Assembly (NCBI RefSeq): GCF_037975245.1
Contig: NC_092561.1
Location: forward strand, 3,643,001-3,707,000
Reading direction: 5' to 3'
Length of the DNA: 64,000 bases
From: Apostichopus japonicus
Taxonomy: Eukaryota; Echinodermata; Holothuroidea; Aspidochirotida; Stichopodidae
Shown: positions 33,934 through 60,135 of the stretch, in pieces
Layout: each line of letters starts with the position of its first letter
Numbering within the stretch: position 1 is the first letter of the stretch
The notes under the pieces: model-generated
Told to the model about the DNA's origin: nothing
Seen by the model: the letters and a program-made list of their open reading frames with translations, nothing else
Database searches by the model: none
Program-made: the position numbers and the translations under genes

Positions 33934-34337
33934 TTTGATTTTTCCCTCTTTTCTTCAGGCTCAAACTATATTAGCTTCGTGATGTAAAGAAAAATCACCG
34001 TTGGACGCTTTTCGAGGACAAACGTGCACCTAAGGGAAACATGAAACATATACAGATCATAAATTAATCCCCATATCATTTCAATTTTGTGAGGGCAAGG
34101 CGTCCATTCTGAATCTTTATTTAACGTAAAATGAATTTGATTTTTCCCTCTTTTCTTCAGGCTCAAACTATATTAGCTTCGTGATGTAAAGGAAAATCAC
34201 CGTTGGACGCTTTTCGAGGACAAACGTGCACCTAAGGGAAACATGAAACATATACAGATCATAAGTTAATCCCCATATCATTTCAATTTTGTGAGGGCAA
34301 GGCGTCCATTCTGAATCTTTATTTAACGTAAAATGAA
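33934..34337. repeat. Two tandem copies of a 202-bp unit
   Basis: 33934-34135 and 34136-34337 are nearly identical, from tttgatttttccctc to cgtaaaatgaa. They differ at only a few positions, for example gtaaagaaaaatc versus gtaaaggaaaatc. Minus-strand frames of about 60 codons occur in both copies with identical wording because of the duplication. The unit is close in length to the satellite that follows but shares no obvious sequence with it. Confidence 0.93.
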
Positions 34338-34560
34338 TGTGAGGACGGGTCAACGTGTGCGTCGAAAAGGAGACTGATGTAAATATAGACTTTTCTTTCC
34401 CAGATCAAAATTGAGCGAGTGAGTGCATGTATATGTCTTGTCGTAATACCCTTGTAGTTTTCTATACCACCATGACAAAAGAGGAGACGTAACCATAATT
34501 GATGAAAAAATAATAAAAAATATATGGAATGATAAGTATCATCAGCTTTACAAAAGTTTA
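34338..34560. other. Spacer between the 202-bp duplication and the satellite
   Basis: About 220 bases with no repeat or exon seen. Confidence 0.5.
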
Positions 34561-37500: not shown

Positions 37501-40500
37501 CGTCATCAAATACCCCTTCCTTAAAAATATTGGGTGTTCAAATTAAGGCTTAACTTTACACATAAATCGAATGTGCGGCTGAGTTTATATCTGCAATTGG
37601 CCTCATAGAAAATCCTTCAAATTCATATAGATTGTAGAACTACTCTTCATCTATACCCTCATGTAAAGATTGGAGTGATCCGATGCCCACACAAGGATAT
37701 ATGACGTCATCAAATACCCCTTCCTTAAAAATATTGGGTGTTCAAATTAAGGCTTAACTTTACACATAAATCGAATGTGCGGCTGAGTTTATATCTGCAA
37801 TTGGCCTCATAGAAAATCCTTCAAATTCATATATATTGTAGAACTACTCTTCATCTATACCCTCATGTAAAGATTGGAGTGATCCGATGCCCACACAAGG
37901 ATATATGACGTCATCAAATACCCCTTCCTTAAACATATTCACACGAGATTTCAAAATGCTTAACTTTACACATAAATCGAATGTGCGGCTGAGTCTATTT
38001 CTGCAATTGGCCTCATAGAAAATCCTTCAAATTCATATAGAATGTAGAACTACTCTTCATCTATACCCTCATGTTAAGATTGGAGTGATCCGATGCCCAC
38101 ACAAGGATTTATGACGTCATCAAATACCCCTCCCTTAAAAATATTGGGAGTTCAAATTAAAGCTTAACTTTACACATCAATCGAATGTGCGGCTGAGTTT
38201 ATATCTGCAATTGGCCTCATAGAAAATCCTTCAAATTCATATAGATTGTAGAACTACTCTTCATCTATACCCTCATGTAAAGATTGGAGTGATCCGATGC
38301 CCATACAAGGATATATGACGTCATCAAATACCCCTCCCTTAAAAATATTCACACGAGATTTCAAAATGCTAAACTTTACACATAAATCGAATGTGCGGCT
38401 GAGTTTATATCTGCAATTGGCCTCATAGAAAATCCTTCAAATTCATATAGATTGTAGAACTACTCTTCATCTATACCCTCATGTAAAGATTGGAGTGATC
38501 CAATGCCCACACAAGGATTTATGACGTCATCAAATACCCCTCCCTTAAAAATATTCACACGAGATTTCAAAATGCTAAACTTTACACATAAATCGAATGT
38601 GCGGCTGAGTTTATATCTGCAATTGGCCTCATAGAAAATCCTTCAAATTCATATAGATTGTAGAACTACTCTTCATCTATACCCTCATGTAAAGATTGGA
38701 GTGATCCGATGCCCACACAAGGATATATGACGTCATCAAATACCCCTCCCTTAAAAATATTGGGAGTTCAAATTAAAGCTTAACTTTACACATAAATCGA
38801 ATGTGCGGCTGAGTTTATATCTGCAATTGGCCTCATAGAAAATCCTTCAAATTCATATAGATTGTAGAACTACTCTTCATCTATACCCTCATGTAAAGAT
38901 TGGAGTGATCCGATGCCCACACAAGGATATATGACGTCATCAAATACCCCTTCCTTAAAAATATTGGGTGTTCAAATTAAGGCTTAACTTTACACATAAA
39001 TCGAATGTGCGGCTGAGTTTATATCTGCAATTGGCCTCATAGAAAATCCTTCAAATTCATATATATTGTAGAACTACTCTTCATCTATACCCTCATGTAA
39101 AGATTGGAGTGATCCGATGCCCACACAAGGATATATGACGTCATCAAATACCCCTCCCTTAAAAAGATTGGGTGTTCAAATTAAGACTTAACTTTACACA
39201 TAAATCGAATGTGCGGCTGAGTTTATATCTGCAATTGGCCTCATAGAAAATCCTTCAAATTCATATATATTGTAGAACTACTCTTCATCTATACCCTCAT
39301 GTAAAGATTGGAGTGATCCGATGCCCACACAAGGATATATGACGTCATCAAATACCCCTTCCTTAAAAATATTCACACGAGATTTCAAAATGCTTAACTT
39401 TACACATAAATCGAATGTGCGGCTGAGTTTATATCTGCAATTGGCCTCATAGAAAATCCTTCAAATTCATATAGATTGTAGAACTACTCTTCATCTATAC
39501 CCTCATGTAAAGATTGGAGTGATCCGATGCCCACACAAGGATATGTGACGTCATCAAATACCCCTTCCTTAAAAATATTGGGTGTTCAAATTAAGGCTTA
39601 ACTTTACACATAAATCGAATGTGCGGCTGAGTTTATATCTGCAATTGGCCTCATAGAAAATCCTTCAAATTCATATATATTGTAGAACTACTCTTCATCT
39701 ATACCCTCATGTAAAGATTGGAGTGATCCGATGCCCACACAAGGATATATGACGTCATCAAATACCCCTTCCTTAAACATATTCACACGAGATTTCAAAA
39801 TGCTTAACTTTACACATAAATCGAATGTGCGGCTGAGTCTATTTCTGCAATTGGCCTCATAGAAAATCCTTCAAATTCATATAGAATGTAGAACTACTCT
39901 TCATCTATACCCTCATGTTAAGATTGGAGTGATCCGATGCCCACACAAGGATTTATGACGTCATCAAATACCCCTCCCTTAAAAATATTGGGAGTTCAAA
40001 TTAAAGCTTAACTTTACACATCAATCGAATGTGCGGCTGAGTTTATATCTGCAATTGGCCTAATAGAAAATCCTTCAAATTCATATAGATTGTAGAACTA
40101 CTCTTCATCTATACCCTCATGTAAAGATTGGAGTGATCCGATGCCCACACAAGGATATATGACGTCATCAAATACCCCTTCCTTAAAAATATTGGGTGTT
40201 CAAATTAAGGCTTAACTTTACACATAAATCGAATGTGCGGCTGAGTTTATATCTGCAATTGGCCTCATAGAAAATCCTTCAAATTCATATATATTGTAGA
40301 ACTACTCTTCATCTATACCCTCATGTAAAGATTGGAGTGATCCGATGCCCACACAAGGATATGTGACGTCATCAAATACCCCTTCCTTAAAAATATTGGG
40401 TGTTCAAATTAAGGCTTAACTTTACACATAAATCGAATGTGCGGCTGAGTTTATATCTGCAATTGGCCTCATAGAAAATCCTTCAAATTCATATATATTG

Positions 40501-43105
40501 TAGAACTACTCTTCATCTATACCCTCATGTAAAGATTGGAGTGATCCGATGCCCACACAAGGATATATGACGTCATCAAATACCCCTTCCTTAAAAATAT
40601 TTGGTGTTTAAATTAAGGCTTAACTTTACACATAAATCGAATGTGCGGCTGAGTTTATATCTGCAATTGGCCTAATAGAAAATCCTTCAAATTCATATAT
40701 ATTGTAGAACTACTCTTCATCTATACCCTCATGTAAAGATTGGAGTGATCCGATGCCCACACAAGGATATATGACGTCATCAAATACCTTTTCCTCAAAC
40801 ATATTCACACGAGATTTCAAAATGCTTAACTTTACACATAAATCGAATGTGCGGCTGAGTCTATTTCTGCAATTAGCCTCATAGAAAATCCTTCAAATTC
40901 ATATAGATTGTAGAACTACTCTTCATCTATACCCTCATGTAAAGATTGGAGTGATCCGATGCCCACACAAGGATATATGACGTCACCAAATACCCCTTCC
41001 TCAAACACATTCAGAAGAGATTTCAAAATGCTTAACTTTACACATAAATCGAATGTGCGGCTGAGTTTATATCTGCAATTGGCCTCATAGAAACTCCTTC
41101 AAATTCATATAGATTGTAGAACTACTCTTCATCTATACCTTCATGTTAAGATTGGAGTGATCCGATGCCCACACAAGGATTTATGATGTCATCAAATACC
41201 CCTCCCTTAAAAATATTGGGAGTTCAAATTAAAGCTTAACTTTACACATCAATCGAATGTGCGGCTGAGTTTATATCTGCAATTGGCCTCATAGAAAATC
41301 CTTCAAATTCATATATATTGTAGAACTACTCTTCATCTATACCCTCATGTAAAGATTGGAGTGATCCGATGCCCACACAAGGATATATGACGTCATCAAA
41401 TACCCCTCCCTTAAAAATATTGGGAGTTCAAATTAAAGCTTAACTTTACACATAAATCGAATGTGCGGCTGAGTTTATATCTGCAATTGGCCTCATAGAA
41501 AATCCTTCAAATTCATATAGATTGTAGAACTACTCTTCATCTATACCCTCATGTAAAGATTGGAGTGATCCGATGCCCACACAAGGATATATGACGTCAT
41601 CAAATACCCCTCCCTTAAAAATATTGGGTGTTCAAATTAAGACTTAACTTTACACATAAATCGAATGTGCGGCTGAGTTTATATCTGCAATTGGCCTCAT
41701 AGAAAATCCTTCAAATTCATATATATTGTAGAACTACTCTTCATCTATACCCTCATGTAAAGATTGGAGTGATCCGATGCCCACACAAGGATATATGACG
41801 TCATCAAATACCCCTTCCTTAAAAATATTGGGTGTTCAAATTAAGACTTAACTTTACACATAAATCGAATGTGCGGCTGAGTTTATATCTGCAATTGGCC
41901 TCATAGAAAATCCTTCAAATTCATATATATTGTAGAACTACTCTTCATCTATACCCTCATGTAAAGATTGGAGTGATCCGATGCCCACACAAGGATATAT
42001 GACGTCATCAAATACCCCTTCCTTAAACATATTCACACGAGATTTCAAAATGCTTAACTTTACACATAAATCGAATGTGCGGCTGAGTCTATTTCTGCAA
42101 TTGGCCTCATAGAAAATCCTTCAAATTCATATATATTGTAGAACTACTCCTGATCTATACCCTCATGTAAGGATTGGAGTGATCCGATGCCCACACAAGG
42201 ATATGTGACGTCATCAAATACCCCTTCCTTAAAAATATTGGGTGTTCAAATTAAGGCTTAACTTTACACATCAATCGAATGTGCGGCTGAGTTTATATCT
42301 GCAATTGGCCTCATAGAAAATCCTTCAAATTCATATATATTGTAGAACTACTCTTCATCTATACCCTCATGTTAAGATTGGAGTGATCCGATGCCCACAC
42401 AAGGATTTATGACGTCATCAAATACCCCTCCCTTAAAAATATTCACACGAGATTTCAAAATGCTAAACTTTACACATAAATCGAATGTGCGGCTGAGTTT
42501 ATATCTGCAATTGGCCTCATAGAAAATCCTTCAAATTCATATAGATTGTAGAACTACTCTTCATCTATACCCTCATGTAAAGATTGGAGTGATCCGATGC
42601 CCATACAAGGATATATGACGTCATCAAATACCCCTTCCTTAAAAATATTCACACGAGATTTCAAAATGCTTAACTTTACACATAAATCGAATGTGCGGCT
42701 GAGTTTATATCTGCAATTGGCCTCATAGAAAATCCTTCAAATTCATATAGATTGTAGAACTACTCTTCATCTATACCCTCATGTAAAGATTGGAGTGATC
42801 CGATGCCCACACAAGGATATGTGACGTCATCAAATACTCCTTCCTTAAAAATATTGGGTGTTCAAATTAAGACTTAACTTTACACATAAATCGAATGTGC
42901 GGCTGAGTTTATATCTGCAATTGGCCTCATAGAAAATCCTTCAAATTCATATATATTGTAGACCTACTCTTCATCTATACCCTCATGTAAAGATTGGAGT
43001 GATCCGATGCCCACACAAGGATATATGACGTCATCAAATACCCCCTTCTCCAAAATATTCACACGAGATTTCAAATTATAGCTTAACTTTACACATACAT
43101 CGAAA
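34561..43105. repeat. 8.5 kb satellite array, 42 monomers of 204 or 206 bp
   Basis: The phrase gtagaactac (one copy reads gtagacctac) marks each monomer: 42 occurrences from 34581 to 42958. After a first 190-bp and a second 203-bp monomer, spacing is strictly 204 or 206. Two types differ in one segment: the 204 type has gggtgttcaaattaagg and the 206 type has cacacgagatttcaaaatgc. All share ggatatatgacgtcatcaaa, gaatgtgcggctgagttt and gcaattggcctcatag. Edge monomers at both ends are the most diverged, as expected when unequal exchange homogenises the middle. Blocks of several monomers recur with offsets of 4708, 2048 and 1844 bases. No open reading frame is maintained. Confidence 0.97.
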
Positions 43106-44358
43106 TAAAATATTTTTCGACAGTTTAACTATTTAGTTTCCGTCTTTCTATTTCCTATTCTCTCATTCCTGTTTTCTAGTATTTCTTCCCATCTCTTCTC
43201 TCATGTTTTCTTTGTGCCAACTGGGTTGGTGTCTGGGTAGGGGGGCCGATCGACGTTATCCCACCACCCGTATAATCGGCTCTGTGATACGACTTCACTT
43301 TAACTGTATACTTGATATGCGTATATCGCTACACTGCTATACAAATGCAGTTGCATTTACACTTGTTGAAGGCTCCCGTTTTCCCATGTCTATTTCCATA
43401 TGTAAGGCTGAAATGATTCAAAGATAAGTTCAAGATGTGATTGATGTCATTATTAAACGGTCTCTGACACATTCCATGCAGCCAATTCAGATCAAATCCC
43501 TTGAGTGTCTAGTCACGTTTAGTTGGAAATTAGGATTCACTTCGGGGCTTGCTTGAATATGTCATCATGTTTGCAAATATAGCCTATTTCGTCGTGTTTA
43601 AAATATTTTTATTTTTTATTTTGGGATTAAATGTAAGTTTGATATGTGATTTTAAATATATATCATCTTGGTGTTTAACATCTTTGGTAAAAGCATATGT
43701 TTGCTTGTGAATTGACATATATTTTCAATGTATGTGCATTTCATATTATATTGTTTATGTATACTTAGTTTGTATTTTTATACATGCTTCTTTGCCTCTT
43801 GTTTCGCTTTTGCGGTCATGGCCGCCCATATGCTGATTGGTGAGTGACATAATCTATCATTTACGAAGAAATGTAAGTAAAACCTTTCACTATGACGCAA
43901 TCGTTGAATTGTGGCTTTGTGTAGAGGTTTAAATTCTTAATGTTAAGATAAAGCTGACACCGAGAAAGGAAAAGTTAACCAACTGATGACCGCAAAGGCG
44001 TTCTATACCGCCACTGTCGTCCAAGTTTGATGAATTTGCCAATTAGTATATATTTATCAGTTTATGACAGTAAACAGATTCGACTTCCTGTTTAGTGGGT
44101 GATGGGGGGGGGGAGGGGTGGCACGTTTTGGCTGTAAACGGGGTCACTTTATTCGTTGAACATTAAAACGTGTGTGCACCAGGTATTCTGAAGCCATCAC
44201 TAGAATTCCTCTTTAGGGTTGTTTTGGCTACATATCGCTAGATCGACTGTTCAACGGAACAAGGGTTTAGGATTTGTAAATTAATTGAATTCGACCAGTT
44301 TGAGAAGTGCACTGTTATTCGTTTCCGTTTCATATGAGCGGCTACACTTTGTGAGACC
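43106..44358. other. Gene-free DNA between the satellite and the PHD-USP-Ulp1 locus
   Basis: No supported exon; the 74-codon frame at 43203-43427 has no motif. A G-rich run (ten G, then agggg) occurs near 44104-44118. Confidence 0.4.
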
Positions 44359-44419
44359 ATGCCATTTTCGAAAAAGTACAAGTTTTCGGAAGAAGAAGTC
44401 CTACGCTGCATTGCTAAAG
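44359..44419 (+). CDS. Candidate first exon of the PHD-USP-Ulp1 gene
   Basis: An ATG at 44359 begins MPFSKKYKFSEEEVLRCIAK and one further base before AAAG|GTTGGT, a usable but not ideal donor. The phase is 1, exactly what the acceptor at 49668 needs. If joined, SEEEVLRCIAK would continue into the helical, Trp-containing start of the large exon (RQTKWQQ..RHDSLWYQVA), resembling the spacing of small SANT/MADF-like DNA-binding folds. That resemblance and the join are inferences. If unspliced, the frame ends after 34 codons at 44461-44463. The 5.2 kb intron would hold all the transposons listed below. Confidence 0.4.
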
Positions 44420-44727
44420 GTTGGTACTGCTTATACAAATACCCATTATGCAATTTCAAGTAATAATTGAAGGTTCTAGCGGCTAGCCATCATTTGTTTC
44501 GAGGCTAGGTTGAAAAGATGCCGCAGGCTACTACTGCTATAGCAGATATACAGTTAGTATATTTATTATATTTATATAAGGGCGACGTTCGAATAAGGCT
44601 GTCGCAGGATGTACCCGGCCCGTGATTTGATTGGTTGATATTCCGCAAGTTGTTTGCAAATATTAGAGCTTCTATGGTATATTACTTGCACAAAAAACTA
44701 AACCAGGATTCCTTAGAGCGTTTAATT

Positions 44728-44892
44728 CATAGGCGTAAAAAAAAACTGCCCCCCAAATTTCCAGAGGACAAAAATTCGGGCAAAAGTCCTGAAAAATTTG
44801 GGCAGCCTAAGAGGAGGAAAAATATATATATATATATTTATATATATATATCTATATTTAAAAATTTGAAAAGATTCGGGCAAGCTACTCCA

Positions 44893-44928
<36 letters not shown>

Positions 44929-45667
44929 TGGAGTAGCTTGCCCGAATCTTTTCAAATTTTTGCCTGACAATTCCATGATTGTCTTTATTTAGCATCATGA
45001 TGCCCGAATATCTCCGTGTAACACCACCGTAAGCGCAGCTCATCTGGGCTATCACGCTTTTTGCACGATCATTTTTTTTCTTCTAACTAGTCAATTGTAT
45101 ACCTGGACATCCCCGACATGAGTGTATATAAGAAACATTTTCTTTTTCATGGATGGGTGGGGGTGCCTACAAGCCTAGAAGTACAGGTTTATCATATTCT
45201 TTGTTATGTTTTATACTTTTTTTGTGAGACAAATTGAAGCCTCACCCGACACAGCGACATTATCCCGCCTACGTGTCGTTGAACAATGTGTGTTTTTCTG
45301 GAGGTAGCTGAGTACTTGTGTTAAGATAATAAATACGGTAACTAAATTTGAGCTTAAAAAATATACTGTCCCATTTTTCCCCTTCAAAGTGATGTTACCA
45401 TATTTTCTTCTTCTAATTTACCAAATTTTTGGGGAAGTGTAAATTTCTAAAACGTGAGATTATAAAATAAAGAATGTTTAGATGCAACTTGCAAAGCCTC
45501 AGAAGTGCCGTTTCCGGCAATCTGAGAGGCATTTTTTGCCAACAATTTTCTTGTACGCTACGCGCCAACCAATGGTGGCGCTCCGCTTAGATAGTGTCAT
45601 GAGAACTTTCGGACACAAAAATTTCTGCCCCCCCCCCCAAAAACTGAATTGGTCCCGTACGCCTATG
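44728..45667. mobile_element. Non-autonomous hAT-type transposon, 940 bp
   Basis: Inverted ends CATAGGCGTA at 44728 and TACGCCTATG ending at 45667 are flanked by 8-base direct repeats GTTTAATT (44720-44727) and GTATAATT (45668-45675), which differ at one base. Eight-base duplications are typical of hAT transposition. There is no transposase. Inside are a perfect palindrome (44860-44961) and a segment (45474-45597) shared with the small element at 60.1 kb. Confidence 0.7.
44860..44961. repeat. Perfect 102-bp palindrome
   Basis: The two 51-base arms are exact reverse complements about the point between 44910 and 44911, with no loop. The outer part of each arm is unique sequence (aaaatttgaaaagattcggg, then caagctactccatat) and the centre is TA repeat. 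It lies inside the 940-bp element. Confidence 0.97.
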
Positions 45668-46189
45668 GTATAATTTATAGTATACAAGTGATGTCATTTT
45701 TGCTGCTTAGCTTAGATTCGGTTGTATCAAAATCATAACGTCAGGATGTTTTGTCAATTACGAATTAACGTTTCCAAAACATTCATTGACAGACAATGGC
45801 AAATTAACCTTTTAAAGGTATAGGTGGACATGCTATGGATTGGCCTGAAAATTATTCATTGAGAATAAACGAACAGAATCATGCCTTTTCACCTAAAGAA
45901 AAACTCTTGTAATTACATAGTTATACAATTAAATGCATTGAAATTAAATTCATAGCTTGAAGCGAAAAAAATCTATTAATTCTCTGGCTCATATTGAATT
46001 ATTTTAGTACACAAACAATACTGTGCTGACAGTTTAGTCGAAAGAGACAGTCATTTATAGAAATTGATGTCAAATTTAGCAGATTCTCACTGACCAAAAA
46101 CGTGATGCTTAAAAGCTCATGAATGTACAGGTCACCGTGTAACGTCAATCTGCATAGGGAGTGAACCGCGAACGCGAACCAATAACAAT
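45668..46189. other. Spacer between two hAT-type elements
   Basis: No exon or repeat recognised beyond the target duplications at its edges. Confidence 0.5.
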
Positions 46190-46197
46190 GGACTTTC

Positions 46198-47622
46198 CAG
46201 GGACGTAGACAGGGGGAGGGGCGGTGGGAGCGATCGCCCCCCCCCCTTTGAGTACGCGAAAAAAATTGAACTAAAACCAGGTAATATTAAGCCCTCTGTT
46301 CAGGTTGAAGGAAGTAAAGCGACTCTTCTCAATATTCGACTGAAAGTTCGTCTACTACATAATACAATAAACTTTCTTCGCACATCAATAATGCTCCCTA
46401 TGTGAGAACTGCCCCTTTCAAAATTCTGCCAGGGACTTTTTAAGAAATTTCTCAAAAAGGGACCATATCATGATACGAGTGTCGCCAAGCATATGAAGAA
46501 TATTTTAATCCCAAAATGACGTTGACATTAACAGTTTTCACACAGCTCAGACATGATTTTACTTATACAGCCCCAACAATGTACCGTCAGCCATGCTGTT
46601 TATTTTGTTATGCTTAGGGAAATGGAGCAATACGAGGCACATAGAATAGTACGGTGGCTTAATAGAGACATATATGAAAGAAAGGAAAGTGTCCTCAAAT
46701 TTCAAAATGTTAACATATAAAGTCAACATTTAGACACTTTACCTCAAAATTGTGACTTGTTTTTTCACAATTTTGACTTTTTATCTCATAATGACTTCTT
46801 ATCCAAAAATTGTGACCATTTATCTCACAATTGTGTCTTTCTATCTCAAAATGTCTGAAAGATTTTACTTTTTATCTCAAAATGTTGACTGCTAACTTAA
46901 CAAGGATGTACGAAGTCTGCGTACGTCGTACGTAATAATTTTGTTTTCCACATCCTCTCTAGAGCTTCTCAAGGATGCATGCTGCCTGTTAAATTTCACA
47001 CTTATTAATTAATTTACGGAATATATGATGTTACAAACACGTGTCAAATATATATTGTTTAGTGTTGAAATGGGTTTTTACTAGTCAATCTGGGCTTCTT
47101 ATTACAGTGGCCAAATCTGATAGTGTTTGTATTTGCAGAGATTGGTAAAACTCATTGCGTCACTCAGTCATAGTGCTTGTACTAGTAGTGTACTACAGAA
47201 TAAATATTCAGATAAAAAGTATACAAACATTTTGAGATAAAAAGTAAACATATTTAGATATAAAGTCAACATTTTCAGATAAAAATGTCCCAATTAAGCC
47301 ACCGTAGAATAGTGATGAGATTTCATCTCAAGTTTTAAACATGTTGGCATAGCTGAAGTCTTACCAAAATTGTCATATTTTGGGACACTGTTTTCTCTCT
47401 CCTATGTCCCTCTTAAGCCACCCAAGAACAGTAATGAGGAATTCATCGCAATTGTTTAAACATGCTGGTATGGTTAAAGTATCTAGGGTGGGGGTGGGGA
47501 GGTAGAAAGGGATCTAACTGGAGTGGGGCCGTAAAAGGGACTGGGGGGCCTATGCCCCAGTTAGTACGTTGCAAAATACCCTGAATTCTGCTCCCTCTTT
47601 CAAGTTTCTGGCTAGGTCCCGG
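46198..47622. mobile_element. Non-autonomous hAT-type transposon, 1425 bp
   Basis: The left end reads CAGGGACGTAGACAG and the right end, in reverse complement, CCGGGACCTAGCCAG; they match at 12 of 15 bases. Perfect 8-base direct repeats GGACTTTC flank it at 46190-46197 and 47623-47630. It encodes no transposase, and a second inverted-repeat element is inserted in it (46650-47306). After the nested element, two related blocks (about 47293-47365 and 47412-47485, both with ttaagccacc and taaacatg) form an internal duplication. Confidence 0.8.
46650..47306. mobile_element. Nested inverted-repeat element, about 655 bp
   Basis: It begins TACGGTGGCTTAAT and ends with the exact reverse complement ATTAAGCCACCGTA. 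The sequence gaatag lies immediately outside both ends; counting the terminal TA the direct repeat is TAGAATAG (8 bases), so the exact target-duplication length is ambiguous. The interior is a degenerate repeat built on ttatctcaaaattgtgac at about 46735-46890, and a related gagataaaaagt block in the opposite sense near 47233-47285. Confidence 0.7.
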
Positions 47623-47630
47623 GGACTTTC

Positions 47631-48418
47631 CACATACTTCTCGTAATAATGTGAACCTTTTATTAACTCTTCCATTAAACGTGCAGCTACAACAAAAAGA
47701 ACTGGTTTTTAGAATTATTCACACATTGGTTAACTCATTTCGTGTAACAATTAAATAAAGCCGCTATATATTTGCGTCTTATTCAATATTTCTCAAACGC
47801 TCATTGGCTCCACGATGCCATAACGACATACATAACTAGCTTATCTTTTTAAATCTTACTACAAATGGTGAACTAAAAGTCGAACAATTTACAAATTTCA
47901 AAGTTGTTTTACTCGAAGATATTTTTCGTCAGAATCGCAATAGACCACGCCCATAATATGAATATTTAAATACTGTGAACTTCATTCAATAATGAGGTAA
48001 ATAATTTTCACTTTACCGGCGTCCTAAGCAACCCAGTAAACCAATACGTACTACAACACAATCTTTTATATGTGTGTTGTGTAAGGCCGACGTGATTCCG
48101 ACGCAACATTTGTGAATTGTAGGGATTGAATCTATTTTAAGGCAACGGCTCATAAATGTTAGCTATTAAAACTAGTGGATTTTTGGCGACTGTATGCGAT
48201 TAATTTTAAATGAGGAATTAGTCGGAGGACACTCTACTCATTATCTGCAGAGTCCCTTATTACTCGCCAATAAACACTGTTGGCAGGGAAAAACTTGGAT
48301 ATCTTAGTTTGCTGTTTTTTATTTATATGTGTAAACAACTCGATGGACATTCAAAGGGGTGAAAAACGGCGACAAAACGCAAAAAGCGGATATGAAACGA
48401 AGGACTTACTATTATATG
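47631..48418. other. Intron or intergenic DNA without recognised features
   Basis: No supported exon. If exon 44359-44419 is real, this is part of the first intron of the PHD-USP-Ulp1 gene. Confidence 0.4.
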
Positions 48419-48851
48419 CGTATATGGCAAACCATGTGGGACAAACACCACATAATATATCCGCGTAGTAATTCGAACATATACGCGTATTAATTGGAAT
48501 ATACATGCGTGTACATGTGTATAGTTTCGCTGTTTGAAGCGATCTCGGGAGCCCGCCAAAATATTTTCGTTGATATATGTACACAGCAAGAGCGGAAATG
48601 TGTTTTCGTGTACATTCGAATTAATCCGTGCATAGTCTATATTGGATTTAATCCCCATATGTATTCTATTTAATACGTGTATATATTCGAATTAATACGT
48701 GTATATATTCGAATTAATACGTGTATATATTCGAATTAATATGCGGATATATTTAAGCCATATGATTGGCTAATAATATATACGCGTATAAATTCCAATT
48801 AATACGCTCATATATTATGCGGTGTTTATCCCACATGGCTTGCCATATACG
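48419..48851. mobile_element. Long inverted-repeat MITE, 433 bp
   Basis: The left arm begins cgtatatggcaaaccatgtg at 48419; the right arm reads, in reverse complement from 48851, cgtatatggcaagccatgtg. Similarity continues for about 85-90 bases (ggacaaacaccacataat versus ggataaacaccgcataat). The core has three tandem 22-base units of cgtgtatatattcgaattaa type at 48676-48741. A clear target duplication was not found, so the superfamily is not assigned. Confidence 0.75.
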
Positions 48852-49667
48852 TACTTGTTGTGTGCATATCACTCAGATACTGTATGCATATGGTATGTGT
48901 GAGATCGGACACGTATCTCGCGCTTGTGGCATAGACAAATAAGCCAGTTTAGACAGCGCATGCGGTACAAAGCCGCGTGACGCCATTCACAGACTCATTC
49001 ATAGACTTTAAGGGTTTTACATAGGGACGGATATAAAACTTGTAAATGTTGCTCCAGGACACGAGTCATTGATTTGCGTACAAGTATAGGGGACATTTGA
49101 TATTGCGTCCGTTCATCTCAAAAAGTGTGGGACATATCCCCATGTCTCCTCCCCCACCCCCCCCCCCGGATTGACGCCCATGTGCCTCGGTAGCAGAGAC
49201 TCTCACTGTGCGACACGTGGCAAAGTATACACGAACATTTTAGCGAATTACGTTTAAGATAAAAAACAGATAATTGGTGAAGGTAAGACTGATAAATATG
49301 AAAGGAGAAAAAGGTGACCCCCCCCCCCAAAAAAAAATCATGCTCATGATACGTCATCCGTTGAACAAGTGATAAGGTACCAACAGCGATGACCAGAGTG
49401 TACGTGTACATAATATGTACAATATGTGTACTGATTTGTATGATAAATATATGTATATATATATATATATATATGTATGTATATATATATATATACACGC
49501 ATACATATATACATATGCGTGTGTGTGTGCTTGTTACACATATTCTATATATTACATATTCTATATTTTATATTATATGTTACATATTTATTTTATTTTC
49601 TGTTTATCTTATATATTGTATGATATATTATACATTATTACACTTTTTCATACACTTTTTTTCCCAG
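48852..49667. other. Intron end with C-runs and a TA repeat
   Basis: It contains C-runs near 49150-49168 and 49318-49328 and a TA/TG microsatellite at about 49446-49530. It ends with a strong pyrimidine tract and acceptor (tttttttcccag) at 49656-49667. The frame of the following exon runs back through the TA repeat, giving a Tyr/Ile-rich leader that is not credible protein. Confidence 0.6.
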
Positions 49668-52600
49668 TTCGTCAGACGAAATGGCAACAAACGCTCTCGG
49701 CTAATTCTTTCCGTCGACATGATAGTCTTTGGTATCAAGTTGCTGTTCTACTCCTGAAGACGAATGCGCACAAGAAGAAAACTCTGTCACATCTGAGCTT
49801 TTACCTGTATAAAGAGTACATGAGAGATTGCATGCTCAAAAAATGGTATAAGGTTGACAAAGAAGAAATATCAACAAAAGAAGACGTGTCAATTAAGGGA
49901 ACAGAACGGTGCGACGAAAGCGCCGCTACTAACCGGATATGTAACGATAGCCAGTCAGAAGAAGAGACGAATGATGATACACACGACCTGACTCCATCTG
50001 AGGAGAGATTCTGCATCTGTTGCGAAGTGAACGATGGCAGTCCCTACCTCCAGTGCGACATCTGTGACAATTGGTACCATTTCAGGTGCGTGGGATTATC
50101 CACTTCTCCTGATACCACAGACCATGTAGAACGCTCAAATTTTACGTGCAACAGATGTCTTCCGCTGACAGGTCGTGGAATATGTAATATTGGTAACTCA
50201 TGTTGGTTTGCAGCTATCATCCAGGCTATTAAAGTTACAGACGCTGGACAGATATTGAAGAACACCTCCCCGACGATTGGCACAGTTGCTGACGAAATCA
50301 GGCGGTTCCTTTTTGAATTAGAAGAGAACAAAACGGAACCCTTAAGCGATGTTATAGTTAGGCAGGCGATAAAGACGATTGCTGAAGAAGTCCGTGGTCC
50401 TTTTACCAATATTACGAGTCAGCAGGATGCCAGTGAGTTTTTCGCACGCTGCATTAGTGATGCCATTCAAAGGGAAAATGTCAAAAGCAACACACCACTC
50501 GTGACAACGACTTTCCTTTCTGAAATAATATCTTGTTTGAATTGTGGCAACTCAGAGAGACGACAGCAGTCACTTCCTATGCTGACTATCACCACAGACA
50601 ACACAGAGGCTGAGAGAAATATTAGCGCTATATTTCAAGACGAGGTTCGAGAGGAGGTATTGTGCAATCAATGTAAACAGAACCAGGTGAAAGGATACAG
50701 TTATGAAATTCACAAACTACCTCCATGTCTTGTTCTAAACGTAAATCGTACCAGAGCAGGTGGACGAAAGAGCACAGTTCCTGTAACGTCTTTAATATCG
50801 CTGGAAATTTCAGACTTTCAATTGAACTTTTCCGATGAATGTTACGCAGGATATCATTATAAACTGCTATCTGCGGTCGTACACCAAGGCGTAGATTGCA
50901 GGAGCGGTCATTACTATACATATACGTTTAGGAACAACGGAGTGGTCTGTCATAACGACGAAGACGTAGAGAGATCTACGTTTGAGGAAGCGGTCGCAGA
51001 CATAGCGGTGAATGGCGTTATTCTCTTCTATGAGCTTTCGCCTGAGAGCAGTGCCATAACATGGTTCACAGAGAAAGACGATGAAGAAATACCCAAGTTG
51101 GAAGAGGAGAATGTTCCACTGTCGGAAGGTAAAACTGCGGACAACGGTACTACTGAAAAACCGCAAGTAAAGATACCTGATAACGCCGAAGAGCTTGAAA
51201 AGACGGTTGACCAGGACGACGAGTCTGTGGAAGGCCCAATCAGTCTGGAAACGCTTTCCTCATTGAATGTTTGCCAGGTATATGACAAATATTTCGAAGC
51301 GTCCATTCCGACTAATGCCTCTTTTTCGATTGACGAAAACGATTGGAAAAACCTTAGAAGCAGGCAAAAGGGTACACGATTACCTTTACAGTGGGTAAAT
51401 GTGTTTTATAAAGGGCTCCGGCAATCAAACCCATTCTGTACCTTGATGTTCAAAAGACACCGGGTTTCCAAGAAGGGCAGCAGGAAAATTTCCGGTGACA
51501 TTTTCAGTGCTTACGCATATTGCTCTCGACGACCGACATGTTCCGTTTCGGCAAGACTCTCGATGGCCAGTAACCTAAAATGCATGGTGTTTTATACAGG
51601 CTGCGTCAAACACGAAACAGATGAGACTTCACAGCGTCCCGTGCGAGCCGATGAACGGAAAACGCTGCAAAATGAATTGTGGAAAAGCCATTGCCCATCA
51701 CGTTTGCACACGGAACGTCTCGGAAAGCTTGACGAGCATACATTGGCTAGCGGAAACCTAACCGGAGTATGTGTCGATGGCTCTGTTTTCAAACAGATAA
51801 GCTACGAGGGAAGACGGCAACTACAGAGCGATAAAGATTTATTAACAAGTCTTCTTTTGAAAAAACAAGATAGTTTGAACAACTACATCAGACAGATTTC
51901 TGCCTCTCCGAGCTATGTAGTCTCATTTACGGACGCTGGGGTTCGCCTCTTCCATGAGCTCGCAAAGACAGTGCCATTGCACTGGGATGCCACGGGTTCA
52001 GTGACATGGAAAGATGGCAACAAGGAATATCTGTATTATGCTATTGTTTTCCCAAATCCAACGAGACAAGAGGAGGGGGAGAAGTCATCCCCATGTCCCA
52101 TAGCAGAGCTAATTTCAACAAATCAGTCTGAGCCAACTATATCTAACTGGCTTCAGTTGTTTAGATACAGAGAGAAGAGCATATACGGGTTTAGAAACCT
52201 AACAACCCCTTGTTTAATCTCAAGCGATAGGAGCCTTCCATTGTTGGTATCTTCACTTAAGGTTTTCTCTGGAGAAACGATGAAGCAATACCTGGAGAGA
52301 AGCTGGAGAATCGTGAGCGGTGTTGCTTCTGACGAAGACTTGAACGGCATGGTTGTACACAGCGGCCTTTGCCACTTCATGAAGGACGGCAAAGAGTACT
52401 GCCGTAAGTACTATAAGAAAGAAAACTCGTGGTTTGGCATGTGCTTGTTTCGTCTTCTCGCAGAAGTTCGCGTGTTGCAAGACTTTCGAAAACTGATGTA
52501 TTCGATTTGCATTGTCCTTCGAGCAGAAGTCTACTCACCGATTTGTCAACTTCACATGAAGGAAATCTTGTCAACACTTCGCAGTCGAGATTCCTCTGAA

Positions 52601-54103
52601 ATGAATGAAATTGTTGTCACTGACAACGAGTACGAGGGAGAAGAAATAAATCCTTTGAAGCAAACTCAAACAAGCAGATGCACAGAAGAGGATGCTTTAG
52701 TTCAGGAATCGTCGAATTTCAAGACACTATGTCACAACATAGACAACGACGCGAAGGATGCCCTGTCGAAAGAGGAAAGGACAGCTGGTTACGATAACTC
52801 AAAACCAAACTATTTCAAAAGCAGCCAACTGATAGAGAGAATGCTGACATATGTTTTGCCTACCATTCCTATCTGGTCACAACTCATTCTAGGTGACCTG
52901 ACCAGACATTCGACAAAATATCAAAAGGCTAATTACGACACTACCAGATATTTTATCCGCAACCCACCAACGACACAGGGCTACATGGAAGCATACAATA
53001 AAAATTTTAAAATGACGACGGTGGCCAACTTTCGATTTCGCTTGGACGAATTACTACAAAGAATGTTCACTGCTATCGAGGCACAACAAAGGAAGTTTGT
53101 TCTCCAGTATAGGGTGCGCAAGCAAAAGAAAGTGGGAAAACGAGCAACAACATTGGTGGAAGAAAAATGGAGTCGGACGTCGAAAAAAACCAGAGATGAT
53201 ATGAAGAAAAGATCGAGCAATGGGGCCATTGGAAACTGCAAAACGGCAGCAGAAAATATTCTACAGACAGTTACATTCGAATATGACAGAGAACGAGGAA
53301 GGAAAACAGAGGACTCCACTCCGTCTCACTTAAATAAAACGAATAAAAGGAAGTCAAACACCCTAATTGGAACTCCTCGAACCAGCAAAACCCTCAAAAA
53401 GGCCAACCTTAACCAAAATGACAAGAAATCCTGGAAACGGGAAATAAACAAAAAGGTAGTGGAGGGCAAACTGTTGGAAACCCAGACGATAATCATTGAT
53501 GAAGAAAAGGAGTACACTGAAAACTACGACCGACGGGATCTGTACGAATCACTATTGCGTAATTCGTGGTTAGATGACAACGTAGTCAATGACTATTTAG
53601 AGTTGCTGCAAACACAGGTGACGAATTTCAACGTGTTCCTTTGCAATTCATTCCAAATGAGTTCACGAATTTCAATTTCCCAAATCGCTAGAAAATGGTA
53701 CAAAGCACAAAAACTCATCGGAAGTAGATGGATTCTCCTTCCCGTTAATCGCAACGGCGTACACTGGGTACTACTAGCTGCAAATGCAATTACGCAAACA
53801 CTTTATTATCTCGACCCTCTTGGAGGCGACAATCTTGGTGGAGAAATGAAGTGCTTCATTCGTTTCCTTGACGAGAGGTCAGCGTTGGAAGGACATTCAT
53901 GGCGTTGTACGAGATGGTCGGTTGAAACAACTTTTTCTTTTAAATTGCCACTCCAACCAACCCCAAACGACTGTGGTCTGTATATCCTTCTTTACGCCAG
54001 AACTTTGTTGTTGGAGAAGGAAATGCAAAGTAACATTGACATTCAAGCAGAACGGAATTCAATCTACCAAACACTTCACAATTACGATATGCAGCGGTTT
54101 TAA
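49668..54103 (+). CDS. PHD finger - USP deubiquitinase - transposase-like core - Ulp1/SENP protease protein
   Basis: A 4436-nt uninterrupted exon from a strong acceptor to a TAA stop; joined to 44359-44419 it gives 1498 aa. In that numbering: a helical N-terminus (about 20-90), then a PHD finger at 136-184 with all eight zinc ligands (CICC, CDIC, HFRC, CNRC). The USP domain at about 189-473 has the Cys box GICNIGNSCWF (Cys199), two zinc-type CxxC pairs (CLNC, CNQC), the His box SGHYYTY (His435) and a following NDED. A transposase-like region at about 550-995 has HWDATGS (Asp794), ISSDRS (Asp874), LCHF (Cys922/His923) and LAEVR (Glu953), compatible with a DD(C/H)E RNase H fold of MULE-like type. 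A basic linker leads to an Ulp1/C48 domain at about 1305-1490 with WLDDNVVNDYL, VHW (His1386), LDP (Asp1403), Gln1450 and NDCG (Cys1456). Expected roles are histone-tail reading, ubiquitin and SUMO removal, and DNA transposition or binding in the nucleus. All catalytic residues of both proteases are present, so it looks recently functional. It may be a transposon gene or a domesticated one. Confidence 0.8.
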
Positions 54104-54715
54104 AGTTTCATGTATACATGTTCCGCGAGATACTATTTACTGCCAAGAAACACAGAACTGTAAAAATTCAGACTTGGTGCCAAATTGTTAATGTGAGAGA
54201 TATTATACCAATGACGAGATTAAAACACTGTCGCTTTCAGTATATGGAAAACATTTATTATCCTTAACGACGAGCTTAGCGGCGCTTTGCACATGTTTCC
54301 GGACCTATATGAATTCATTGTTGGGACTTATCATGCTTTTCTACGAACGAGTTTGGCAGACATCCAACTATACCATCCACCAGTTTTTGGGGTGAGTGTC
54401 ATCTTTCCAACCCGTGGGTATATATGATGTGTTCTCGATGAAAGTAAAAATATTCTGCAAAGCATAGATTTGTTAACCAAAATATGATCACATAGACTTG
54501 TAACCAAAATATTATCACATATTTCAGATCAATGATCTGCTGATGTTGCTTATAATTGCCACTTATACTTGCCACTTATAATTGCTTATAAAAGCCTTTT
54601 CAGACTTAAAATGTTTCCGTTTGCTAGTTACCAAAGGAAATATTTCACGGGGTTCTTTGATAGTTTATGGCTTGGTAAATGTGCAAAACGTTGTCTTCTA
54701 ACGTTTTCCACACAG
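54104..54715. other. 3' flank of the PHD-USP-Ulp1 exon
   Basis: No obvious terminal inverted repeat matching the 5' side was found. A short direct repeat (gacttgtaaccaaaatatnatcacata and its neighbour) occurs at about 54470-54525. Confidence 0.4.
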
Positions 54716-54794
54716 ATTTCCTCGCTTCTTCACCGACGCATTCCAGTTTATCTTTCAAGATCGGCGTATGACAACTTGACGTTAACTTCCTACA
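54716..54794 (+). CDS. Candidate exon, copy 1 of a duplicated pair
   Basis: 79 nt between acceptor TTTTCCACACAG and donor GTAAGTATG. In the open frame it encodes ISSLL-H-RRIPVYLSRSAYDN and LTLTSY plus one base. The flanking sequence, including ccaaaggaaatattt upstream and ctcgtgttaagcaa downstream, is duplicated with the next copy. No family was recognised. Confidence 0.35.
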
Positions 54795-55072
54795 GTAAGT
54801 ATGTTTAACTAGTCAGTAAGAATAAATGAGCAACAACCATTCTCCTTTCTCGTGTTAAGCAAATAAAGTAGCATGATTAGATCTTGCAATCAATTGGAAT
54901 TAAAAAGAGTAACAGAACGAAAGAAATAATCGTCTTGTTGCTACTAGAATATTTTGTGCTATGTCTTTTGTACTGAAGTAATTCTTACAGACAATGGGAG
55001 CAATACTTGAAGCCAAAGGAAATATTTAATGAGGTTCTTTGATAATTAATGGCTTTCAATGTTTCCATACAG

Positions 55073-55157
55073 ATTCCATCGCTCCTGTATATATACCGAC
55101 GCATTCCAGTAAATCTGTCACGATCGGCGCATGACAACTTCACTTTTACTTTATACA
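55073..55157 (+). CDS. Candidate exon, copy 2 of a duplicated pair
   Basis: 85 nt between acceptor TTTCCATACAG and donor GTAAGTCTG. It encodes IPSLLYIYRRIPVNLSRSA, HDNFTFTLY plus one base. Compared with copy 1 it has two extra codons and mainly conservative changes. Both splice sites and the phase are the same. Confidence 0.35.
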
Positions 55158-55599
55158 GTAAGTCTGTTTTAACTTTGTCAGTAAATCTAAATAAGTAACG
55201 ACCATGGCCGCGCATTTCTCGTGTTAAGCAACTAAAGTAGAAGTAATAGATCTTGCAATCATTTGAAATAAAAAGAGTAAAAGAAAGACAGAAACTTGCC
55301 CAACAAAAATAAAATGATTGCGATCGTCATGCTGTGAAGGGAAAAGGCAATTGTTCGAGGAAGGGTGTTTGCCACGCCAGAACAGTTACAGATTCCCTCT
55401 TTGGCAAAATGTAGCTAAGTTATGAAATCATCACTTTCATAGTTATTTCATCGTCATTCACCAGGTACCATTCTTTCATTTGAATGAAATTTAAATCTTA
55501 GTTTGAACAGAGGCAGAAAACATTAACCGGTTCATCCCTATATTTTTCTACAGGTTAGCAAATTGCACATTCAAAGTTTGCAGAAAGCCGTATTCACAA

Positions 55600-56604
55600 A
55601 TGTTCTCCGTACACACTGTTTTATGGAAGCGCAAGTTATGCAAAACCGGTGCCGTTGGCATTTGTTATGGTGTCAAGGAGGAAGAGGAAGGACGACCATT
55701 GGGCTGTACTCAGGGCAGTATAAAAGAAGCCCTCCCTTCTAACCCCAGAGTTAACCGTTTCGTCTTGACCTGTGATGCTGCGAAGTATGAGAGCAGTTGA
55801 ATCCGTCTTTCCAGATGGCACCATCGAAGGCTGTCTGTTTCACTGGCGTCAAGTGGTATGGGGAAAGGTGAATTGTTTTTATATGTTTTGGCAAGTCAAG
55901 AGAAAAAATAGAATGCATTTTATATATACATAATGAAATTTAATCTATACATCCGTCGTAATATATTATATATTTTTCTATATCGCGGTACAAGATTTGA
56001 GATTGAGGAAAGCTTATTCATCGTCAGAAGCTGTGCAAACGTATATTCGAAAACTGATGATGGCATTACCTATGCTACCACTACAACAAGTTTGGCCTCA
56101 GTTCGATATTCTCAGAGAGGAGCAAATAAAGGAGTGGTCTTACTAAATGGAATCCACCTGGACGTGTGTATTAAGAGAGCCATTCACACGATATTGAAGG
56201 TATGTCTCAACAATCCTCTTTTGTATTAAATACTATATCACTTGTATTACTGGTCATGATTGAAGTTCCTCTTTTGTTTTTATTTACACATGAAATTATA
56301 TTTACACATTGTTTTTTAGGATGGCGTCGCTACCTGAACCAAATCGCTGGAAAGGAAGTACCGTTTTATGATATTGTTACAACTCTACACATAGTGGCTG
56401 AAACCTTTGTTACAATGTACAAGTGTTGCTGAGGTCGGAAGGAACACTGAGGAGGGTCCAAAAAAAAGAAGGGGGGCACACAGGACACTGCAGTCTCGAG
56501 TGCAGCAGTTGTGGGAAGAGTTTGAGACAGGAGACCAAACGACTGCGAGACTCCTCAAGTCATGTTCGCGACTGTTCGGAACCATGGACACAAAACAACA
56601 ATAG
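55600..56604 (+). pseudogene. Degraded MULE (Mutator-like) transposase
   Basis: Pieces of a Mutator-like transposase appear in order but in different frames. About 55634-55716 carries KPVPLAFVMVSRRKRKDD and AVLRAV, the block preceding the second catalytic Asp, and then hits a stop. About 55717-55776 carries KEALPSNPRV and FVLTCDAA. About 55777-55850 carries ESVFPDGTIEGCLFHW, the C/H motif. After a roughly 460-base gap, 56320-56400 has GWRRYLNQIAGKEVPFYDIV, and 56440-56600 has a C-terminal RVQQLWEEFETGD and ARLLKSCSRL block in a shifted frame. At least three frame breaks and the unrelated middle show it is inactive, unless some breaks are introns (a GTATGT follows 56200). It is unrelated to the intact transposase-like core upstream. 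Confidence 0.7.
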
Positions 56605-58598
56605 ATAGCCATAATCAGCTGGACAGATCTGGCATTTTTTCAGGAACTAACTCCTCGCCTGTCCCCACGGGGAAAAAAGAGGGCATGGGCAGGGCCTTGG
56701 GGGTAGTTCCCAAGTGCGCTCAACCATGTTTATATATCTAACAAAAAACTAACATTTTCACAAAAAAAAACATGAAACAGACTGAACTGTTGACAAGCGT
56801 TACATGAAGTATGTAAAAGGGACGTTCCTTTGTTAATGCGTTCCATGTTTTTCTCCCTAAGCCTTAAACAAGTAAAAGAAAGCAAGTTAAAAAGGAAACT
56901 CACCTTTTAAAGTATTGTCTACAAGAATCTTAAACTGTATTCTTGTACCATTATTCAAGAGAAATAGCCTAGCCTAGCCTATATGCCTTCCTTGGTTTAT
57001 CCCCTAAAAGCGTTACTTTCCTCACTTAGCCGTATTAGTATACACAGTTTCGTCAAGTACTGCAAATATCTCTTCCCACACAGCTTCTGAGTCCCGTGAA
57101 ATATGAAATATTTTTTTCACTAACATCTCTTTGATTAAAATCATTAATCAAAATCATAAATTACATTTACTACAGTTGCTTCACTACCTAAATTTAACTC
57201 TTTCAAAAACCCCTAGCCAATTAGCCGTCTCTCTTTCGTCTCATGAGAAACGTTAGTTTTCCCCTACAAGCGTTACTTTTCTTCCCTATGGTTTCGAAAT
57301 TAATGTTTTAAGGGGAGGAAACTAATGGGTCAGCAAACTAACGGGAGCCCTACATTATGTCTGAATTAATTTAAGATCTCTCATAAATGTTTTCAATACA
57401 TGATATGTTTCATTTTTTCTGATATCTAAAATTCATTTTTAATAAATTTGAGATATCGCCAAACATTAAAGGGTCGAATATGATCTGAAAGCTATATATC
57501 AGTTTATACTGCAAGGCTTACCATTTCCGGAGTAGAAGGAGAGTGAGTGGGGTGAGGGGGCTTTAAGTATGGTCAGGACACGCCGCAGCTTTGATGGAGG
57601 GACTAGTGATTATAGGTATATTTACTGTGTATATGCTGGGTTGTGGATGGGGGCATTGTACAGAGTACTACAGAAGGGTAAGTTTGGTTGAAAATGTTCC
57701 TACTTCACTGTCGTATTGTGACTATTAGTAAAAAATCTATTTACAATAATCATATGATTTATCATTGAATATTGATGTTGCTATGGGGAGAGATTCAGTT
57801 GATGAGAGAAGGGGTATTAGGAGGGAGGTTGACAACCGGGCAGTGGTTATGATTGATGGGAGGGGAACGAATTGATTTGTGAATTATGAAGTCAAAGCAA
57901 TTAGTTTCTCATTTTTTTTGTATTTGTTTGTACAAGTATTAAATTATGCGCATATAAATTAGCCTTTCATGAGACCCTTGTTCCAGTTACAACAATTGAG
58001 GTGTCAGAGATGATGTGCATGCACAGCAGCACTTATCACTCGAGATGTTTGGTAGCCTGTAATATATTCTAATTATTCACGAATGAAAATTTAACAGAAT
58101 GTCAAACAATAAGTCATATCCCACACATTCAAACATCAAATTATACTTTACTGCAAAAAAAATAATACTTCTTGAACTCATCGAGCTATCAAGATTTCAT
58201 CCAAATAATTTCAAATGGACTATAAACTTTTTAAGAAACCTCACTTCAATACCTTCCCAACAATGCATATGTTCCTATTACAAAACGTGACTGGATTTTG
58301 AGTAATTAAAATTGGTAAATAATTTCCCCTGAACCTCCTTGACCGGCCTTTGTATATAGTTAACACAAATGTATCATTTGTTAATACAAATTAACGCTGA
58401 TGTAATATTAATTGGCTTTGTAAAGCAGGGAGTTCCATAACAACTCCCTTGTGACACCTAGACAACCTTTGAAGTCACAATGATAAGCTGCTTACATCGT
58501 CTTTCTCAACGTGGGATTCAACGGTAAGGAATTAACCTAACCGTTTAGACAATTATGTTCATTAAACAGTACCGTAAACTCACACTACGGAAGGTACA
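56605..58598. other. Gene-free DNA
   Basis: No exon recognised. Two related blocks, tcccctaaaagcgttacttt near 56999 and ttcccctacaagcgttactt near 57259, indicate a short imperfect duplication about 260 bases apart. Confidence 0.4.
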
Positions 58599-58644
58599 GT
58601 TAGCATACTCGTTCAGCAAGTTGGTGCTGAACGTGCATGCTAAC
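58599..58644. repeat. Imperfect hairpin, 20-base arms
   Basis: gttagcatactcgttcagca at 58599-58618 pairs with tgctgaacgtgcatgctaac at 58625-58644, 18 of 20 positions matching, around a 6-base loop. It may be the tip of an old inverted-repeat element, since ccgtaaa-type sequence appears outside both arms in opposite orientation. Confidence 0.75.
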
Positions 58645-60135
58645 TTCAATTGGGTTTATTTACGGTTAAATCACGAATGTACGGCTGAATGTGCGGCTCA
58701 CTTGACTCTAGTCAAACAATCAGAGAATAAAATTGCAAACACCTGTAACAAAGACATCATCTAAGTCGCATTGTCGCAGCCGTTGTGTTTAATTCACGTT
58801 GAAAATGCCATTTCGTGGAAGCAGTATGTATGTTGTACGCGCAGATAACTAGAAACGTACAACTTGAACATAGGACGCATGCGTAACAAGTATCCGCCCT
58901 TATGCCCAAGAATAACATCTGTTTTGTAACAATTTCAACAAATGTCATAAAAATAGATTATGTGAGGTTCAAAGATAGAAAATATCATCATTTTACCTTG
59001 AAACCGCTTGTGATGACTCAGGTAATGCGGACTTTTCGCAAGTCCAATGGCGATGAAGCTGCTGTTGATTTGACCCCTATGACATCATAGGTCATTTAGT
59101 AACTGACTAGATGTAATGACAAGAAATACGCTAGCAACACAAAACGGCTAGCCTAGCATATAAAGAGTACAGGGCCAAGGTTCCTTCTTATTTGTTCGGC
59201 TCGTGCTCCAAAATATGCAATGTGAATTTTGGGGAATAATATGAAGGGGTCCGATACAATGGTGAAGAACTGTTTGCTCCTTTTTGTTTCGACATGTCTA
59301 GTCATTTTGTGTGTATGGGAGCCTGTTTGGAAGAACAGGAAATAGGCTAAAGATATGCAGCTTCCTATCAAAGCCTAGCTTTTTGGACCCTACCCTGCTG
59401 ATCTTTGCCGCCTTGTCCGTTTTGGCGTTTCCTATGGGCCCGTCTATAAACATATAATTATTTACATCAATCAGAAATACCCTCCATCGTCTCTGAAACT
59501 AGTTTCAGATAAGTTACTGCGGTAGGACGGTTAAGCGGTTACGGGAGAACGAATGATCGTTACTCTGCAATTATGTAGTCATGGTGCACGGCCAGTATAG
59601 TGACCTAGGGCTGCTTCTGCACTGAGCAGGACTACCCTATAAAACAAACCAAAGAAACAACCCAGGCGGAAGTATATCAGGCTGCTAATAATCAAGTCGT
59701 CCACCGTGACCCTACCACATGTTTGGGTTATGGCCTGAGGACGTTATAGGGTTATGGTTTGGTGAAACTATTAAAACACGAACGCATGTAAGAGACGTAG
59801 TTCCGATTCATTTCACGCTATGAGAAAGCACACTACTCGCAGGTCTAACAATAGTAGGCATACTGTATATTAGATCACCACCAGATTTTTAGGTAAATAT
59901 ACGATTCGTGTGTCCCGCAAGCCGAAAATTTTCTGTTAATATATATTCAATGACGTGTTAATTAGGCTTCACATTATCACGATGTTTATCAAATTTCACT
60001 ATGGATGAATTATCATTTACAGTTAAACTTACAGAAGTATGTTTCGACCTCCTTCCCTTTCCCATAATATATTTGAAAAGATGAAAACCTGAATGGGACT
60101 CCAAAAACAGTGACAGGCAGTTTGAGAGTTACTTG
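58645..60135. other. Gene-free DNA
   Basis: Short open frames on both strands between 58.7 and 59.4 kb have no recognisable motif. Nothing else was supported. Confidence 0.4.

Follow-up and report, generated by a model that had tools for sequence, protein, structure and literature searches.

A young 25-kb transposon of the sea cucumber Apostichopus japonicus with Rehavkus-like anatomy and a transposase predicted to carry a PHD finger, a USP and an Ulp1-like domain

INTRODUCTION

Table 1 of PMC6446971 characterises the Rehavkus elements, which are related to the Mutator-like elements (MULEs), by a PHD finger, by a minisatellite located ahead of the 3' terminal inverted repeat (TIR), by a 9-bp target-site duplication (TSD), and by TIRs of 26 to 400 bp; the hosts given in the available part of that paper are Arthropoda and Annelida. 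The 9.5-kb Rehavkus-1_TC of Tribolium has a 164-bp satellite in its termini, according to the available part of PMC10218199. Arthropod MULEs span 1.4 to 10 kb in the accessible text of PMC13359780, and an excerpt of PMC8277862 names KI-MULE as the single MULE-duplicated protease characterised so far. Here we describe a transposable element of 25,008 bp in a 64,000-nucleotide stretch of the Apostichopus japonicus genome (RefSeq assembly GCF_037975245.1, contig NC_092561.1, positions 3,643,001 to 3,707,000; hereafter the window, whose own numbering is used for coordinates).

The original prediction, made from the window sequence, noted that Ulp1 domains accompany several eukaryotic transposases. 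The available text of PMC2836005 reports Ulp1 in Mutator elements of hydra, lancelet, and plants; it also lists Ulp1, OTU, and PHD domains in Ginger1, suggests a role in repair for such domains, and raises the question of why Ulp1 or OTU domains are present in transposases. The prediction further called a USP in the same chain as a transposase unfamiliar. The combination of PHD finger, USP, DDE core, and Ulp1 was not found in the literature searched at title and abstract level, with Repbase outside the scope, but the pair of USP and transposase has a precedent in a Trichomonas protein, XP_001314237.1 (transposase_11 plus Peptidase C19), mentioned in the same part of PMC2836005. The accessible text of the Holothuria glaberrima genome paper (PMC13228809) does not use the words ubiquitin, MULE, Mutator, or PHD.

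We are confident that the element is a recently mobile DNA transposon of the MULE/Rehavkus kind, with a chain that reads PHD-USP-WRKY-like-DDE-Ulp1. The identification of the element and its domains we rate highly; the proposed role of the proteases has about an even chance of being correct.

RESULTS

A young, recently mobile element

The element and its main parts are as follows.

33705..58712, + strand: whole transposable element, 25,008 bp, delimited by ends common to five full copies in differing flanks and by TSDs
33696..33704, no strand: left TSD, CAAACAATC, exact 9-bp repeat whose sequence differs in each of seven copies
58713..58721, no strand: right TSD, CAAACAATC, pairing exactly with the left repeat
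33705..33735, + strand: 5' TIR, 31 bp, matching the 3' end at 27 of 31 positions
58682..58712, - strand: 3' TIR
34703..43104, + strand: internal satellite array, about 204 bp x 41 units (8.4 kb)
44359..44419, + strand: predicted exon 1 of the transposase gene (MPFSKKYKFSEEEVLRCIAK plus 1 base), with GT donor
49668..54103, + strand: exon 2 with stop codon, an open frame preceded by the splice acceptor tttcccag

We searched the genome (672 Mb, 35 contigs) for copies. A probe from the PHD-USP region had eight matches, five at 98 to 100%, one at 89%, and two at 67%. Five full copies lie on five contigs, and in all of them similarity begins at 33705 and ends at about 58712. Their flanks have no long similarity to those of the window, with small matches elsewhere; to the left of the copy on contig C7 lies a degraded piece of a related element that is similar to the window flank. 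Wherever both ends were present, in seven of seven copies, the direct repeats were exact and all different, 9 bp long and in one copy 10 bp. This count leaves out single ends, a possible end pair at C22:23553088 / 23556231, and a degraded candidate of about 3 kb at C3:1742478-1745579, which has the 5' end, a 3' end without its last bases, and a short AAAATAG on both sides. Probes for the two ends hit at least 18 (5') and at least 33 (3') places. Contigs C15 and C3 hold two shorter elements (about 12 kb) that carry both ends and, among the best candidates scored, matched neither the PHD-USP probe nor P0008, a related protein described below.

The other full copies diverge from the window copy by 0.32, 0.52, 0.56, and 1.56% in exon 2. 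Of the five full copies, two have an intact frame and three are interrupted by stops or frameshifts. The family is young and recently mobile.

One predicted protein with two protease domains

The frame from 49376 to 54103 is open on the + strand. Exon 1 supplies an ATG, 61 bases of coding sequence, and a GT donor whose phase suits the acceptor before 49668; positions 44359 to 44418 match the N-terminus of a relative from Holothuria leucospilota, P0002, at 85% over 20 amino acids. Exon 1 is identical in all four of the other full copies; the search did not recover it from the 89% copy or from the two 67% copies. The two predicted exons give a protein of 1,498 residues, the sole recognised gene of the element. 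Three database proteins (P0009, P0010, and P0011, of which P0010 is from A. japonicus) are 99 to 100% identical to stretches of the frame. The domains, with residues numbered on P0001 as counted from 49415, are the following.

50000..50164, + strand: PHD finger (Pfam PF00628, 2.3e-5)
50177..51031, + strand: USP (UCH, C19) deubiquitinase domain, predicted, C263/H499/D515 (Pfam PF00443, 1.2e-26)
51371..51610, + strand: WRKY-like domain at the N-terminus of the core, limits approximate (Foldseek on the weaker first model)
51839..53200, + strand: DDE transposase core, D858, D938, H987, E1192
53567..54046, + strand: Ulp1 (C48) SUMO-protease-like domain, H1450/D1467/Q1514/C1520 (Pfam PF02902, 1.2e-12)

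The PHD match covers residues 200 to 248 and scores 24.7 bits against a cut-off of 24. The UCH profile (residues 255 to 539) and the Peptidase_C48 profile (residues 1385 to 1544) are also above the Pfam cut-offs. Among solved structures, those nearest in sequence are SENP1/2 (4.6e-10), USP36 (6.4e-7), and the PHD fingers of TAF3/BPTF (3e-6, 3e-5). From known motifs, we take C263, H499, and D515 to be the catalytic residues of the USP, H1450, D1467, Q1514, and C1520 those of the Ulp1 domain, and D858, D938, H987, and E1192 those of the transposase. With a profile match and the Cys, His, and Asp in place, the first protease is a predicted USP (C19) deubiquitinase; the second, with its match and His, Asp, Gln, and Cys, is a predicted Ulp1/SENP (C48) protease of putative SUMO specificity.

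The transposase residues D858, D938, H987, and E1192 are invariant in nine of nine aligned cores (three from A. japonicus, three from rotifers, and one each from a sea anemone, an aphid, and an ENA record). The original prediction, which had put a PHD reader, a deubiquitinase, a transposase core, and a SUMO protease into one chain encoded by a single open exon, is borne out. Its limits are those of exon 2; the full feature is the element itself, 33705-58712, with a further predicted exon at 44359-44419. Of the ordered D...D...CH...E set it had read in the core, the acidic residues and the histidine are conserved, but the cysteine, C986, is not the conserved position. The profile searches that it had proposed for all four parts recovered PHD, UCH, and C48, but no MULE or transposase profile at E<=10. 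Its suggestion of a mobile element agrees with the seven duplications, and the copy count and flanking repeats it had asked for are those given above. Its further idea, that the two proteases may work at chromatin and shield the transposase or oppose silencing, is a hypothesis taken up in the Discussion.

The element might be an ordinary Rehavkus, in which case Repbase Rehavkus transposases would already carry both proteases and only the host would be new. In favour are the features that Table 1 of PMC6446971 assigns to Rehavkus (PHD finger, minisatellite, 9-bp TSD, TIR of 26 to 400 bp) and the terminal 164-bp satellite of Rehavkus-1_TC (9.5 kb; the available part of PMC10218199). The window element has the PHD finger, the 9-bp TSD (seven of seven copies, one with 10 bp), and a 31-bp TIR (27/31). 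The Rehavkus minisatellite stands before the 3' TIR, whereas the array here is near the 5' end; in a second family described below an array is 3' of the gene. Against an ordinary Rehavkus, the main text of PMC6446971 contains no instance of ubiquitin, Ulp1, peptidase, or cysteine protease, and the accessible text of PMC13359780 none of ubiquitin, Ulp1, or peptidase, a comparison in which Repbase was not included. We regard this explanation as unlikely, though it deserves serious attention.

Class of the transposase core

The interval between USP and Ulp1 matched no transposase profile in Pfam at E<=10 in the 15 members scanned, the MULE profile included. A first structural model of the core (610 amino acids, predicted local distance difference test [pLDDT] score of 54.5) was poor past the WRKY part, where Foldseek matched WRKY domains with probability 1.00 and E of 0.05 to 0.07; a shorter segment and trimmed relatives modelled better. 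The core model ranked ISCth4 first by nearly 3 Z units, with Hermes (9.5) and the P element (8.8) also matching. ISCth4 belongs to the IS256 group, kin to the MULEs. Its transposase (PDB 6xgx) is 10% identical to our core, and the accessory domains of the protein have no match in it. A [C/D]xxH motif, attributed to Yuan and Wessler, is said to mark the D, D, E RNase H-fold core of MULE/IS256 type; all three aligned A. japonicus cores have G where this motif has C or D. The core is of the RNase H-fold D, D, E type and has the conserved D, D, H, and E residues, and by modelling the transposase falls with the IS256/MULE type.

A hAT, P, or KDZ/Zisupton-type transposon would account for the Hermes and P element matches, and Ulp1 occurs in KDZ elements. 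However, ISCth4 leads these matches, hAT and P elements make 8-bp TSDs where 9 bp are observed here, and a WRKY-like domain is typical of MULEs. Membership in the hAT, P, or KDZ/Zisupton type is improbable.

A second family and constraint on the proteases

The two 67% matches, on C16 and C3, define family 2, with a stop-free frame of 1,485 residues. Its C16 copy (P0008) has PHD, UCH, and C48 matches, and the protein is 53% identical to that of the window. The two copies differ at 25 bases and 14 residues. At 9 and 17 kb beyond the family 2 genes are ends that resemble the 3' end of family 1 and are ascribed to these copies by position; the 5' ends of the copies were not found. A large tandem array follows the gene and precedes the 3' end, with 271/495-bp units in L035, to which L036 aligns.

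A comparison of families 1 and 2 gave nonsynonymous differences of 0.295 for the USP, 0.285 for Ulp1, 0.196 for the PHD finger, and 0.219 for the DDE core, as against 0.47 and 0.46 for the two linkers; synonymous sites are saturated (0.73 to 0.84). Because the protease domains change less than the linkers at nonsynonymous sites, both proteases appear to have been kept in evolution.

A long frame under constraint could also belong to a host chromatin regulator domesticated from a transposase, and USP36 is the annotation given to a similar protein of H. leucospilota. Such a gene is very improbable in view of the five nearly identical copies, which occupy different contigs and have differing 9-bp duplications, and of the broken frame in three of the five. 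An annotation chimera, in which separate genes share a frame by chance or assembly error, is also very improbable, given the single open exon, the uninterrupted frame with the same domain order in family 2 (53% identity), and the PHD, USP, and core in one chain in P0002.

Relatives in other genomes

Three protein searches gave 6, 11, and 11 partly overlapping matches. Twenty database relatives were scanned singly (P0011 was left out, and P0016 was included only in the 15-member Pfam scan), and 10 had a UCH match at E<=0.1: P0002, P0004, P0005, P0007, P0009, P0012, P0019, P0020, P0021, and P0023. Two of these, P0009 and P0012, are partial sequences from the two A. japonicus families, and in P0020 and P0021 the match is below the Pfam cut-off, at truncated ends. 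C48 was found in the database relatives P0003 and P0019. All four parts occur in P0008 and in P0019, an ENA record with the order PHD (just below cut-off), core, USP, C48. In the core tree, which has two weak deep nodes (36, 42), the rotifers include both domain orders, USP-core and core-USP. No Pfam domain was found in P0013 or in aphid P0014, P0015, and P0017. By eye, a C-terminal NTCAFDS in P0013 and aphid P0014 and P0017 looks like a USP Cys box, without a Pfam match. Viral contigs had 119 pattern stretches and zero confirmed relatives.

The A. japonicus genome holds further frames, 996 to 2,017 amino acids overall, that are 30 to 32% identical to the core. Two stop-free groups of them are candidates for more giant transposase genes: one of 1,340 to 1,509 amino acids at five places (C22:26390468, C3:49545, C4:13382840, C8:17329775, C14:1015720), and one of 1,555 to 2,017 amino acids at three (C12:23368596, C8:40419158, C20:28373992). 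Another stop-free frame, at C21:15076911-15080957 (1,355 amino acids, 48% identical to P0008 from USP to end), may be the gene of P0003.

Satellite, other repeats, and neighbouring frames

The internal array contains GTGCGGCTGA 41 times, a sequence that resembles the 3' end of the element; the remaining full copies likewise carry the array within their limits. Within the window, the 7-mer TGCGGCT and its complement are confined to the element. We considered the satellite as an array of transposase-binding sites and keep this as no more than a remark. The unit scored 28 against the 3' end, above 500 shuffles (maximum, 26), and 23 against the 5' end, a likeness not beyond shuffles (maximum, 25); the family 2 array showed no such end-like motif in the 4 kb read per copy.

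A repeat-rich stretch in the intron, at 48419-48854, recurs in inverted orientation, at 85% identity, ahead of the family 2 gene and is perhaps a separate small repeat. Outside the element, a minus-strand open frame with C2H2 zinc fingers (21366-23222) is probably a host gene, and a 349-amino-acid minus-strand frame (61039-62085), just beyond the 3' end, has no Pfam match.

DISCUSSION

Transposase, PHD finger, USP, and Ulp1 are joined in one protein, which suggests that the element carries its own tools for handling host protein tags. SUMO and ubiquitin pathways act in animal transposon silencing and DNA repair, and the PHD fingers of TAF3 and BPTF read histone H3 trimethylated at lysine 4 (H3K4me3). 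We propose that the WRKY-like domain would bind the 31-bp ends, that the DDE core would cut and join with a 9-bp stagger, and that the PHD finger would tether the complex to open chromatin. The USP and Ulp1 domains could then remove ubiquitin and SUMO from the transposase, or from chromatin or repair proteins at the donor and target sites, and this deconjugation may keep the complex from degradation or silencing.

More tentatively, and with slightly less than an even chance of being right, we suggest that an animal transposon lineage (echinoderms, rotifers) repeatedly keeps a deubiquitinase, in some members with a SUMO protease and a histone reader, flanking the transposase as a portable kit with which it would strip both modifiers at chromatin and evade degradation or SUMO-dependent silencing. 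A cnidarian member of that lineage is a weak, truncated match. If this reading is right, the window protein would be the first transposase known to us to act on both ubiquitin and SUMO. Enzymes for both modifiers in one young transposase, present in two families and rearranged in other phyla, make the question of Ulp1 and OTU domains testable in one protein.

Among the systems in the available text of PMC2836005, Mutator-like elements share an Ulp1 encoded by a Mutator transposon, but no USP is named alongside it. Ginger1 shares the C-terminal Ulp1, plus a PHD finger in one listed family; it differs in its Gypsy-integrase-type DDE core and in having OTU, not USP, as the ubiquitin protease where one is present. 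The Trichomonas protein XP_001314237.1 likewise combines a USP-type peptidase with a transposase, but of another type, and no Ulp1 or PHD is mentioned there. In anatomy the element resembles Rehavkus, as far as the accessible parts of its descriptions go: a PHD finger in the transposase, an internal satellite, a 9-bp TSD, a short TIR, and one transposase gene. The resemblance is to the published descriptions, and the window element is unlike the described Rehavkus in its echinoderm host, its 25 kb, the USP and Ulp1 in the chain, and a satellite near the 5' end. It would extend Rehavkus-like anatomy to echinoderms and to a length of 25 kb.
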